From contig JAURLP010000036.1 of the NCBI GenBank assembly GCA_030831165.1, forward strand, positions 71,622 to 135,621: DNA of 64,000 bases, read 5' to 3'. The notes below the pieces were generated by a model, which did no database searches, was not told the origin of the DNA, and was given only the letters and a program-made list of their open reading frames with translations. Origin of the DNA: Gammaproteobacteria bacterium. Its GTDB lineage: Bacteria; Pseudomonadota; Gammaproteobacteria; Pseudomonadales; Pseudohongiellaceae. Shown here piece after piece: positions 45,726 through 50,254 of the stretch; the stretch's first letter is position 1, and each line of letters opens with the position of its first letter. Made by a program: the position numbers and the translations under genes.

Positions 45726-47252
45726 CTAGGATTTTTGCCGTTTAGGTAGTTCAATTTTAAGTTTCAAGCCACCAAGCTCCGAGTGCTCTGCCTTGATCTG
45801 ACCTTCATGAGCCTCGACGATATTTTTGCAGATGGCTAAGCCCAGCCCGGAACCACCCTTCTCGCGATTACGGGAAGAATCCACACGGTAAAGACGATCA
45901 AACAATTTTTCCATGTCAGTTTCACTAACCCCAGGTTCTGAGTCGACCCAGGTGATAAGTACCCTATCGGTATATTCCTTGAGGTCAATTTTGAGTTCAC
46001 CACCCTTATCTGTATAACGACAGGTATTCTGTAGCAGGTTATCGAAGAGCTGTTTAAGCCGCTTTGGGTCGCCAAAGATATTGATGTGGGATTTATTTCT
46101 AAGGCTATGCACTTTAAGCGTCAGGTTTATATCGTTTTGATCAATTAAAAGGTGATGCAAACTCAGTGTCTGTTCTAGCAAGTTTTTAATATCGACCTTT
46201 TCTTTTTCATAAACCAAGGCACCATTATCGGACATCGATAGTTCATGCAAATCGTTAACCAGGGTATTTAAATGCACTACTTCCTGGTGCCAGGAATCCA
46301 GACTTGTCGGGTCAAGTGGCCTGATGCCATCCTGGACCGCTTCCAGTTCGCCGCGAAGAATCGCTAAAGGCGTTCTAAGTTCGTGGGAAATGTCTGCAAT
46401 CCATTGTTGTCTGGCTGTCTGATTCTGCTCAAGTGTGTTGGCCAAGGTGTTAAAATCTGTGGATAACTGGGCCAGTTCATCAGAGCCATGAATTTCCAGT
46501 CTGGAGCTGTAGTCACCCGCAGTAAGCGCACGAGTGCCACCGACCAGATCACGGATTGGTCGAACCATATAACCTGAAGCCGGAACGGCAATTAGAGTAG
46601 AGATGACGACAAGTGCGATACCAACCAGGAAAAAGGTGTTAATTTGAGTCTGAACAAACAGTACATCGGCACGCTCAGACAATTCTTGTCTGCTGGTGAC
46701 CGCAAGATAACCAACGGTTTCTTCCATAAAAGTGATTGGATAAAGATTGGCCAGAGGCAGCGCTTCAGGATCCCCGAACATGATTTCCTGGTTTTCATCC
46801 AATAAAAGCAGGTGAGGTCTTGCAGGACTGTATTCAGAAGAAAAATACCAGTCATCATCCGCTAATAAGGAAGGGCGGCGGAATGAATCAATAGCGCTGG
46901 GGTTTGATGTCAGAATATTGCGATCTTCAATGGCAGAATCGATTAGACGGAAATTGGTAACCTGGCTAATCTCGAGTAATTCACCGGAGGTTGTGGTTCG
47001 GGCAATACTGTCTCTTATAATGATATTCCAGAGGCTGGGGTTCCCACGAAGTAAATCCCAACGATCACGTGTGGCGTACCATGCCTCCAGGCCATCAATC
47101 AGTGCCGGAATCTGTTGTTCCTCGATTCGACTGATATAGTCAATGAAGCCATCGTTAAATTGCGCGCGGCCTAAGCTATACATCGTAACGTAGACAATGA
47201 GATGGGCTGAAAGAATCGCTAGAATTAACTTGTATCTGATGGTTAGTTTCAT
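45726..47252 (-). CDS. baeS: Sensor histidine kinase, BaeS-like
   Basis: A 508-residue inner-membrane kinase. Membrane segment 1 is at about residues 8-28, followed by a periplasmic sensor region of roughly 170 residues, and segment 2 at about 205-232. HAMP follows (VRPIRDLVGGTRALTAGDYSSR). The phosphorylated His290 is in ISHELRTPLA. The ATP-binding N box has DNLLQNTCRYTDKGG and the G boxes include GGSGLGLAICKNIVEAHEG. The sensing ligand is unknown. It starts 358 bp from the divergent lambda-P-like gene. Confidence 0.88.
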   Translation of the reverse strand: MKLTIRYKLILAILSAHLIVYVTMYSLGRAQFNDGFIDYISRIEEQQIPALIDGLEAWYATRDRWDLLRGNPSLWNIIIRDSIARTTTSGELLEISQVTNFRLIDSAIEDRNILTSNPSAIDSFRRPSLLADDDWYFSSEYSPARPHLLLLDENQEIMFGDPEALPLANLYPITFMEETVGYLAVTSRQELSERADVLFVQTQINTFFLVGIALVVISTLIAVPASGYMVRPIRDLVGGTRALTAGDYSSRLEIHGSDELAQLSTDFNTLANTLEQNQTARQQWIADISHELRTPLAILRGELEAVQDGIRPLDPTSLDSWHQEVVHLNTLVNDLHELSMSDNGALVYEKEKVDIKNLLEQTLSLHHLLIDQNDINLTLKVHSLRNKSHINIFGDPKRLKQLFDNLLQNTCRYTDKGGELKIDLKEYTDRVLITWVDSEPGVSETDMEKLFDRLYRVDSSRNREKGGSGLGLAICKNIVEAHEGQIKAEHSELGGLKLKIELPKRQKS

Positions 47253-47610
47253 AAGATTTTGCTGATTTTACCTATCCATGCATAACTATACTCAGGCTTA
47301 GTATAAAATCAGAGTTGCTTAGCAAGATACACGCTATCTTTCATAATATTTGCACATTGCAGCAAATTGTTAATCTTTCTGGGAATGTTAAGTGCTGCAA
47401 CATTATTGTGATACTAGTTTGCTATGCTAAGCTACTGAATTTGGGCTATAGGGTAAAATTCCATTTATAAGGCAGTTCCAATAAAGCCCCTCTGGAGGGT
47501 GGTCTTAAAGGTTTTCAGATAGATCCTCCGCTGGAACAAAAGAAAAAAGGGAATTTGGCTTACGTAGCAGTGATTTTTGATAAATATTCCAGCTTCTTCT
47601 AGGAAAGGCA
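47253..47610. other. Intergenic region between baeS and the lambda-P-like gene
   Basis: A 358-bp divergent gap. Near baeS, TATACT/AGTATA form a 6-bp inverted repeat with a 7-bp loop (47287-47305) whose right arm overlaps a minus-strand TATACT -10-like box; it could be an operator. Further on, GTTCCA (47475-47480) and TGGAAC (47532-47537) could close a stem around two GGAGG/CCTCC pairings, a possible structured leader of the plus-strand gene. AGGAAAG (47601-47607) is the ribosome site for 47611. No coding sequence is convincing. Confidence 0.4.
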
Positions 47611-48300
47611 GTGACAATAAAAAAAATTGATCAACTCATAACGCCTGTCTCAGCGTCCGCAAAGGCCACTAAGCAAATTAAAGGGCTAAAAGCGGATGAT
47701 GATAAAACTTCCGCATCTGCTTCCAGAAAAAACTCCAGTAAAGACCATGTTGATGCTATCAATCAGATGTTTGCTGAATTTGAACTGGCATACCATAATC
47801 AATATCACAAAGCATTTCCTGATGAAGGGGCTTTGAGTCTTGCAAAAAAATACTGGTTAACCAGCCTGTCGATTTTTCCACCGGAATTACTTCTTGCGGC
47901 TACACGTGAGCTTGTTCTCAATCAGCCATTTTTGCCTAGTATTGCCAAGCTTGTCGATACATGTAAATCAGGACAGTCTTTATTTGGCCTACCCAAGGCA
48001 CATGAGGCCTACCTTGAAGCATGCCGGAAGCCATCACCAAAATCAGCCCAGGACTGGAGTCATTCTGCAGTCTATCTGGCTGGTAAAGCCACAGGTTGGT
48101 TTGAATTGGCTAATCAGACCGAAGGGCAGATTTTTCCTTTATATGAATATCACTATTCACAGCTTGTGCAGCGAGTGCTAAAAGGTGAAGAATTGGTTGT
48201 GAACGCGTCTAAAGCTCTTCCTGAATCGATAGACAGACCATTAAGCACAAAAGAAAATTTGTTGCGTCTAAAAGAATTAAAATCCAATCTTAAAATTTAA
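47611..48300 (+). CDS. Chromosomal protein resembling phage lambda replication protein P
   Basis: A 229-residue protein with GTG start and a good ribosome site. The N-terminal 45 residues are polar and Lys/Ser-rich. The remainder resembles lambda P (family PF06992): a helical region with EFELAYHNQYHKAF, then NQPFLPSIAKLVDTC (compare lambda NRPFLPS), an EACRK segment, a middle block with HSAVYLAGKATGW, then RVLKGEEL and a C-terminal helix rich in Lys ending ELKSNLKI. Lambda P binds the host DnaB helicase and delivers it to origins. No phage gene, integrase or att-like repeat lies near, and its neighbours are core genes, so this looks like a domesticated or vertically inherited helicase-loader-like protein. 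Function is inferred from resemblance only. Confidence 0.65.
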   Translation: MTIKKIDQLITPVSASAKATKQIKGLKADDDKTSASASRKNSSKDHVDAINQMFAEFELAYHNQYHKAFPDEGALSLAKKYWLTSLSIFPPELLLAATRELVLNQPFLPSIAKLVDTCKSGQSLFGLPKAHEAYLEACRKPSPKSAQDWSHSAVYLAGKATGWFELANQTEGQIFPLYEYHYSQLVQRVLKGEELVVNASKALPESIDRPLSTKENLLRLKELKSNLKI

Positions 48301-48589: not shown

Positions 48590-50254
48590 TTAGCTAAGTT
48601 TTTTGTATTTGACTCGAGTAGGCTCCCCATCGCCTTTTCTTTTCTTTCTGTCTTCTTCGTAGTCTGAATAATTTCCCTCATGAAAAATGACATCACTGTT
48701 GCCCTCAAAAGCAAGAATATGGGTTGATATTCGGTCAAGAAACCAGCGGTCATGTGAAACCACAATTACTGTGCCTGGAAAGGCCAGCAGGCCTTCATCC
48801 AAAGCGCGCAAGGTTTCAATATCGAGATCATTTGTTGGTTCATCGAGTAAGAGAACATTTGCGCCACGCTTAAGCAGTTTAGCCAGGTGTAGTCTGTTAC
48901 GTTCCCCGCCAGATAAGTGCTTAACAAATTTTTGCTGATCACCCCCTTTGAAATTAAAGCGACCGAGATAGGCTCGAGACGGAATCTCATAGTTGCCTAT
49001 TTGCAAGGTGTCCAGGCCTTCTGAAACTTCCTGCCAAACAGTGTTTTCATCATTCAGCTCATCCCGGCTTTGGTCAACATATGCCATTTTTACTGTTTCA
49101 CCAATACGAATGCTGCCTGAGTCGGGCTTTTCCTGATCCATCAGCATTTTCAGGAAAGTCGTTTTACCAGCGCCATTACCACCAATAATCCCGACGATAC
49201 TTCCTCTGGGAATAGTCAGGCTGAGATTTTCAATGAGAGCCTTATCCCCAAAACTTTTACTGATATTGTCGACTTCAATAACCAGTTCTCCCAAACGGGG
49301 GCCGGGTGGAATATATAATTCCAGAGTTTCATTTCGAGTCTGAAATTCTTTTGAGGACAATTCTTCAAAGCGAGCCAGACGAGCCTTGCTTTTAGACTGA
49401 CGTCCTTTCGGATTGGCTCTGACCCATTCCAATTCACTTTTAATGGTTTTGGCAATTGAGGATTGTTGTTTTTCTTCAACTTCTAAACGCTTTTCTTTTG
49501 CTTCCAGCCAATTACTGTAATTACCTTCATAAGGAATACCATGGCCGCGATCAAGCTCCAGTATCCAGCCAGCGGCGTGATCCAGGAAATAGCGATCATG
49601 GGTAATGGCGACAACCGTGCCGGGATAATCCTGTAGAAATTTTTCCATCCAGGCGACTGAGCCAGCATCAAGATGGTTGGTTGGTTCGTCTAATAAAAGC
49701 ATGTCTGGTTTGGATAACAATAAGCGACATAGCGCAACTCTGCGTTTTTCACCGCCTGAGAGTCTAGTAACATCCGCATCCCAGGGCGGTAGGCGCAGTG
49801 CATCAGCAGCAATTTCAAGAGTGCGATCTAGATCCCATCCGCCAGTAGCATCTATTTGGACCTGCAATTCACCCTGTCTTTCCAATAAGGCGTTCATTTC
49901 ATCATCACTCATGGGCTCAGCAAATTTGTCACTGATACTGTTAAATTCATCAACTAAATTTTTGATTTCACGAACGCCATCCTCAACATTCCCCTTAACA
50001 TCTTTGCTTGCATCAAGTTCAGGTTCCTGAGGAAGGTAGCCAACTTTCAGGTCTGGCTGAGGCCTGGCTTCGCCATGAAATTCTTTATCGACGCCTGCCA
50101 TGATTCTAAGCAGGGTAGACTTCCCGGCACCATTCAAGCCCAGAACCCCGATTTTGGCCCCTGGGAAAAATGATAAGGAGATATCTTTAAGAATTTCGCG
50201 CTTTGGCGGGACCACTCTACCCACCCGGTTCATGGTGTAAACAAATTGAGCCAT
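48590..50254 (-). CDS. ettA: Energy-dependent translational throttle protein EttA (ABC-F)
   Basis: A 554-residue ABC-F ATPase that binds the ribosomal E site and gates initiation according to ATP/ADP. Two nucleotide-binding domains have Walker A GLNGAGKSTLLR and GGNGAGKTTFLK; signatures are LSGGEKRRVALCRLLL and LSGGERNRLHLAKLLK. The opening MAQFVYTMNRVGRVVPPKREILKDISL is EttA-specific. The PtIM linker (SIAKTIKSELEWVRANPKGRQSKSKARLARFEEL) between the domains is present. It stands alone on the minus strand, 141 bp from divergent glyA. Confidence 0.96.
   Translation of the reverse strand: MAQFVYTMNRVGRVVPPKREILKDISLSFFPGAKIGVLGLNGAGKSTLLRIMAGVDKEFHGEARPQPDLKVGYLPQEPELDASKDVKGNVEDGVREIKNLVDEFNSISDKFAEPMSDDEMNALLERQGELQVQIDATGGWDLDRTLEIAADALRLPPWDADVTRLSGGEKRRVALCRLLLSKPDMLLLDEPTNHLDAGSVAWMEKFLQDYPGTVVAITHDRYFLDHAAGWILELDRGHGIPYEGNYSNWLEAKEKRLEVEEKQQSSIAKTIKSELEWVRANPKGRQSKSKARLARFEELSSKEFQTRNETLELYIPPGPRLGELVIEVDNISKSFGDKALIENLSLTIPRGSIVGIIGGNGAGKTTFLKMLMDQEKPDSGSIRIGETVKMAYVDQSRDELNDENTVWQEVSEGLDTLQIGNYEIPSRAYLGRFNFKGGDQQKFVKHLSGGERNRLHLAKLLKRGANVLLLDEPTNDLDIETLRALDEGLLAFPGTVIVVSHDRWFLDRISTHILAFEGNSDVIFHEGNYSDYEEDRKKRKGDGEPTRVKYKKLS

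Follow-up and report, generated by a model that had tools for sequence, protein, structure and literature searches.

A chromosomal lambda-P-like DopE protein, a predicted helicase loader, and its DopC partner encoded near dnaB in a gammaproteobacterium

Introduction

Replicative helicase loaders are not conserved across bacteria. In 2017, Brezellec et al. reportedly named two proteins, DopC and DopE, derived from lambda O and lambda P. In this work DopE is said to represent a "third type" of helicase matchmaker, encoded on the chromosomes of bacteria that have neither DciA nor DnaC, with DopC as its partner, and is said to be proposed there as the replicative helicase loader.

The published literature describes the systems with which such a protein can be compared. 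Lambda P is arranged as a spiral where the C-terminal domains of neighbouring DnaB subunits meet, and a segment of it reaches the linker helix of an adjacent subunit; it contacts chiefly the C-terminal domains and this helix, and to some extent the N-terminal domain, and the sequence-to-structure assignment in this complex is described as tentative (PMC6391071). Loaders of different origin use one binding site on DnaB, and DnaC and DciA meet the same module (PMC9912922). In E. coli, where dnaT and dnaC belong to one operon, DnaT forms filaments on single-stranded DNA and may recruit the DnaB-DnaC complex (PMC13377028). Brezellec et al. (2016) noted Cellvibrionales with neither dnaC/I nor dciA, a question left open there (PMC5109545), and the wording "DciA or DopE protein families" appears in PMC13326638.

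Here we describe a dopE gene located in a 64,000-nt window, the whole stretch of DNA that was analyzed. The gene belongs to the already known DopE kind, and its gene arrangement is unusual.

Results

The dopE gene occupies positions 47611..48300 of the forward strand and encodes a protein of 229 aa from a GTG start. A preliminary description, made by reading the letters of the window, had noticed three motifs shared with lambda P and had pointed to a profile search with PF06992 as the way to assess them. This search was positive: in Pfam-A, the dopE product matched PF06992 (Phage_lambda_P) with 40.4 bits against a curated cut-off of 26 (E 3.5e-10), residues 49-195 of the protein corresponding to positions 2-159 of the 162 in the profile. 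PF06992 was the only Pfam-A family matched by DopE at E ≤ 0.1, with no AAA+ domain, which is the mark of DnaC and DnaI, and no PF05258. In PHROGs, DopE matched the "P-like helicase loader" family phrog_109 with 83 bits (E 6e-23). As a single sequence compared with the PDB by phmmer, DopE reached lambda P (8v9t) at E 0.031 only; with a profile of 14 relatives (A1) the E value for lambda P fell to 1.2e-7, the match spanning positions 28-225 of the 227 in the profile, and the two remaining weak matches of A1 were a designed protein (E 0.014) and the SPP1 replisome organizer 1no1 (E 0.11). The matches to PF06992, phrog_109 and, with A1, lambda P itself place the resemblance beyond chance. The three motifs were recovered in the order of lambda P, both in the phmmer alignment and in a global alignment with P of NC_001416, as the pairs NQPFLPS/NRPFLPS, EACRK/EYCRK, and KGEEL/RGEAI. 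Three DopE proteins compared with NCBIfam had no match there, so proteins of the DopE type may go unnamed in annotation. Relatives of DopE were present in 29 of 50,697 phage records, the best with 30% identity over 98% of the protein, and in 18 viral contigs.

An AlphaFold model of DopE was built from an alignment of 38 sequences (A3). The model has a mean pLDDT of 77.6 and a pTM of 0.56; residues 1-40 have a pLDDT below 50 and the remainder is helical. Foldseek returned 169 matches of the model in the PDB at E ≤ 10, and the three at E ≤ 0.001 were all lambda P in the DnaB complex 9oa1. In VIA-align, where helical bundles can reach Z values below about 13 by chance, the model aligned with 9oa1_Z at Z 9.7 (190 residues, rmsd 12.3), with SPP1 G39P (1no1_A) at Z 8.5 (67/67 residues, rmsd 1.7), and, in the C-terminal half, with 9oa2_Z at Z 6.9; the first unrelated-looking row had a Z of 5.2. 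As modeled, the domains of DopE and lambda P are alike, their mutual placing being unconfirmed at this whole-model rmsd of 12.3. The N-terminal helical domain (residues 45-116, positions 47743..47958, + strand) has the predicted fold of the SPP1 loader/inhibitor G39P. A C-terminal helix, predicted at residues 213-226 of the model (positions 48247..48288, + strand), aligns with the C-terminal segment of lambda P in the profile match and the global alignment, and by analogy is taken to be the part that would be placed against the C-terminal domain and linker helix of DnaB.

The preliminary description had further placed the gene between baeS and ettA, with normal base composition and no phage around it. 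The ORFs and their domains agree with these flanks, one of which encodes a histidine kinase and the other an EttA-kind ABC-F protein (the names BaeS and EttA are given by sequence, not by family model). The neighbors on the kinase side include a lytic transglycosylase and a response regulator; on the other side the ABC-F protein is followed by GlyA, NrdR, and RibD, again named by sequence. The nearest neighbors are host-type, with no phage genes among them, and the GC content of dopE is 41.2% compared with 42.3% for the whole window, in which no tRNA was found. A tblastn search of species genomes returned at least 536 DopE relatives, of which the best 80 loci were kept. The convergent neighbor ettA (48590..50254, - strand) marks the conserved place of the gene: EttA is encoded in 71 of these best 80 loci, convergent with and downstream of dopE in 70 and at a distance of ≤700 bases in 59. 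It is differently placed in a single locus (L061), and three of the nine EttA-less loci end within 170 bases of dopE. In L055, the nearest locus among the matches listed, the seven tested neighbors (7/7) are all conserved, with their order unchanged and identities of 88-97%.

For an own promoter region, also claimed for dopE, the evidence is weak. Promoter-like sites number 7 compared with 3.7 (sd 2.0) in shuffled sequences, and the gap in front of dopE contains remains of a deleted gene. In the relatives' loci L055-L059, a GGDEF (diguanylate cyclase) gene, named by sequence, lies between the histidine kinase gene and dopE. In the window it is deleted at 47253-47610 with the edges kept: its last codons up to the stop remain at 47546..47580 (+ strand), and positions 47201-47437 match the other flank of the deletion. 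In a pattern search, no DnaA box was found in the dopE and dopC stretches, and one was found in the 720 bases up to the dnaA start.

The host genome (2.30 Mb, 39 contigs, 97.9% complete) holds a single PF06992 match. A genome-wide profile search gave no match to DciA (PF05258, or DUF721) and two matches to DnaC (PF01695), both below the cut-off. As candidates for DnaC/IstB these two were rejected, one falling in a Lon-like ORF and the other in DnaA, which were named by sequence and neighbors rather than by family search. Given this completeness and number of contigs, a missed DciA or DnaC gene is possible. The other six sampled members of the host's family are all without a DciA match (6/6) and all have DopE (6/6). 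Among 194 genomes of the host's order, the A1 family profile, whose source sequences came largely from this order and which also captures phage-type copies, matched 120, DciA matched 61, both matched 1, and neither matched 14; PF06992 alone matched 39/194. The DopE family and DciA thus exclude each other almost completely in this order (Fisher p 3e-35, with shared descent ignored), and the phylogenetic profile of dnaC and dciA that the preliminary description had suggested is positive, the host itself being without DnaC or DciA by these searches. The sole genome of the order with both, G425, has a short P-like ORF with an open frame of 190 aa (85 bits) and a weak O-like match just upstream.

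In the host's class, PF06992 matched 8/369 genomes. Among 253 sampled genomes of the class, A1 matched 13 and DciA 203. Six of the 13 also have DciA (G041, G084, G089, G100, G163, and G182), their A1 matches being weak (26-89 bits), and seven are without it (G000, G003, G046, G161, G176, G190, and G220). Besides the host, only G176 (262 bits) scores like a true DopE, and the eleven others reach 26-89 bits.

The partner gene is presumably the one that Brezellec et al. named dopC in 2017. A DopC ORF above 150 bits was present in 61 of the best 80 dopE loci (of at least 536), and in each of these 61 dopC immediately precedes dopE in the same orientation, with an overlap of ~90-110 bases. At the same threshold DopC was found in 27 of the 30 best loci of the order, and dopE in all 30 of the best family dopC loci. 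DopC occurs in 97 of 99 genomes of the host's family, including the host (G000:C34:59847-60956, equal to L260 5842-6960; 454 bits). This family contains Pseudohongiella, and the DopE and DopC ORFs of one of its loci (L149 of G525) are identical to those of L098 from Pseudohongiella sp. In the host's genus, the dopE-dopC pair is split, with one half near the helicase gene. Two genomes (G559 and G568) have the cluster dnaB-alr-radA-dopC-queG, and the host has dnaB-alr-radA-(GSP synthase)-dopC-queG, where dnaB was assigned by PF03796 and alr, radA, and queG were named by sequence. The additional host gene between radA and dopC, a glutathionylspermidine synthase/CHAP gene (PF03738), is absent from this place in G559 and G568. 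We infer that the joined dopC-dopE pair is the older state because the joined arrangement is commoner.

DopC is a protein of ~380 aa consisting of a winged-helix-like domain and three DnaT domains. PF17948 (DnaT) was matched in all 18 aligned members, with no further Pfam match at E ≤ 0.01; three PF17948 stretches were counted in the first aligned member and three in the host copy. The N-terminal helix-strand domain was predicted with high confidence in the model of a relative's DopC. Lambda O was considered as the identity of this partner and was rejected, PF04492 (Phage_rep_O) matching 0/18 DopC proteins at E ≤ 0.01 and DnaT all 18. In the host genome, no match was found to PF04492 or to phrog_678, the latter being unspecific, with matches in 146/194 genomes of the order at E ≤ 0.01 and in 14/14 controls. 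A profile of 12 O-like proteins gave weak matches (E 4e-6 to 1.5e-4) to four ORFs upstream of dopE, and these led to DopC. Four phrogs annotated as "replication initiation protein" or "DnaD-like helicase loader" match 8-13 of the 18 DopC proteins, and two more match 2-3. By sequence, the DopC profile found nothing in the PDB. The best structural matches of DopC, at only E 0.015, were entries with the titles "initiator", "DNA binding protein", and "Rep-DNA complex". Evidence linking DopC with lambda O is thus weak.

Outside the host's order, the two genes occur in other forms. In G161, a genome with no PF05258 match, a single ORF (L252 697-1887) encodes two N-terminal stretches of DopC fused to the N-terminal domain of DopE. 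In G003 (L251 441-1950), also with no PF05258 match, DopC adjoins a shortened DopE without the middle part. By eye, the C-terminal helix appears to be kept in both, the match in G003 scoring -3.3 bits. A further genome with no PF05258 match, G046 (L250), encodes a DopC-like protein (175 bits) and a diverged DopE-like protein (75 bits).

The descent of DopE was assessed with two trees, in which the chromosomal and phage labels were set by the author from score and neighbors and for both of which the tree program gave a long-branch warning. In the first tree (72 proteins), 41 of the 42 chromosomal rows form one clade (100/97) that includes the DopE of the window. The remaining row (C_L250) falls outside this clade, and the L250 protein is perhaps a separate take-over. 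In the first tree, four P proteins of viral contigs adjoin the chromosomal clade (83/98); in the second they stand elsewhere. For the second tree, ten more loci from diverged families were added. There, 23 chromosomal rows group at 97/95, and at 98/96 together with five rows of three further families. A second chromosomal dopC-dopE group of seven rows (L026, L034, L266, L270, L271, L273, and L275; 100/95) falls weakly with P of Halomonas phage QHHSV-1 (83/88). Two of these, L026 and L034, were labeled as phage in the first tree and as chromosomal in the second; they are probably chromosomal, since a DopC-like ORF adjoins and sampled members of their families have no DciA match. Judging from these groupings, domestication of lambda P may have occurred on more than one occasion in the host's order; a single origin for the whole set of chromosomal rows is not rejected (p-AU 0.34). 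The dopE gene is under purifying selection: the DopE proteins of the host and L055 are 77% identical, with dN 0.129, dS 0.789, and dN/dS of ~0.16. For DopC of the host and G568, the identity is 90%, with dN 0.060 and dS 1.54.

Discussion

The homology of DopE to lambda P, its predicted fold, its chromosomal clade, purifying selection, the presence of DopC, and the finding of no DciA or DnaC make it very probable that dopE encodes a helicase loader of the lambda P type that is derived from a phage and is now the host's own. The preliminary description had offered a helicase loader of the host and a domesticated phage gene as two possibilities; both fit the PF06992 match, the conserved place, and the near-exclusion of DciA. 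By analogy with lambda P, DopE would bind DnaB and open or hold its ring via a spiral of loader subunits, each C-terminal helix latching onto the site at the DnaB linker helix. At the unwound origin, and perhaps also at stalled forks, DopC probably coats single-stranded DNA and would receive the DnaB-DopE complex there, in the manner proposed for DnaT and DnaB-DnaC of E. coli. In such a division of labor, DopC would mark the single-stranded DNA and DopE would bring and open DnaB; we infer also that DopE acts at oriC and is essential. A more tentative proposal, which we put forward as a possibility, is that DopC-DopE is a phage-built counterpart of DnaT-DnaC, in which a three-unit DnaT strand hands over DnaB-DopE at oriC and at restarted forks, and in which the minimal loader consists of a G39P-like domain and a DnaB latch helix. 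This minimum would be what remains in the fusion of G161 and in the shortened DopE of G003.

Three other readings were weighed. One is that DopE is used as a loader chiefly in replication restart, and that initiation at oriC relies on something else. This seems unlikely: no second loader of either the DciA or the DnaC type turned up in the genome, which would leave oriC without one, and E. coli DnaC is used at both initiation and restart. The attraction of a restart function lies in the DnaT domains of DopC, E. coli DnaT belonging to restart (PMC13377028). It is still less probable that DopE is a DnaB-binding inhibitor or regulator, like G39P or free lambda P, and that loading is done by DnaB itself or by an unseen factor. 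The fold closest to the N-terminal part of DopE is indeed that of G39P, deposited as a helicase loader/inhibitor, and lambda P can sequester DnaB (PMC4926192 and PMC3640518); however, the near-exclusion of DciA and the DnaT-domain companion DopC point to the loading step. Finally, although PF06992 and phrog_109 are phage families, relatives occur in the phage records and viral contigs counted above, and phage-type copies lie beside an O-like protein in the same order (e.g., G401, G492, and G517), a prophage leftover without function in the host is highly improbable and was rejected on the host-type neighbors kept in L055, the conserved place beside ettA (70/80 loci), the selection on dopE, the clade of chromosomal copies, and the many genomes that have the DopE family and are without DciA.

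With dopE read as the host's own loader gene, a largely uncultured bacterial branch appears to rely on DopE for helicase loading in place of the usual protein, and many families of the host's order appear to have exchanged DciA for the phage-type loader. Through the dopC copy next to dnaB and the natural dopC-dopE fusion, the two genes are linked with one another and with DnaB; both arrangements are simple test objects for the DopE loader class. Among the titles and abstract openings of the literature matches listed, which cover few subscription papers, none describes the split pair, the dnaB-linked dopC, or the fusion, and no experiments on this loader class were found in the literature searched.

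The locus can be compared with four known systems. As is reported for the DopE of 2017, the protein is derived from lambda P and encoded on the chromosome of a genome that has DopC and in which no DciA or DnaC was found; a difference is that the dopC of the host's genus lies in the dnaB-alr-radA cluster, away from dopE. With lambda P (8v9t, 9oa1, and 9oa2), DopE shares the order of motifs, the predicted helical fold, and the C-terminal segment, whereas the identity in structural alignments is 18-23%, no phage genes adjoin, and DopC takes the place of lambda O. The predicted N-terminal domain has the fold of SPP1 G39P (1no1) over its full 67 residues, but at 15% identity, and the solved G39P chain covers this domain only. 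Like dnaT-dnaC of E. coli, the locus pairs a DnaT-domain protein with a DnaB loader of predicted function; unlike that pair, DopE has no AAA+ match, and DopC carries three DnaT stretches and an extra N-terminal domain in one chain.
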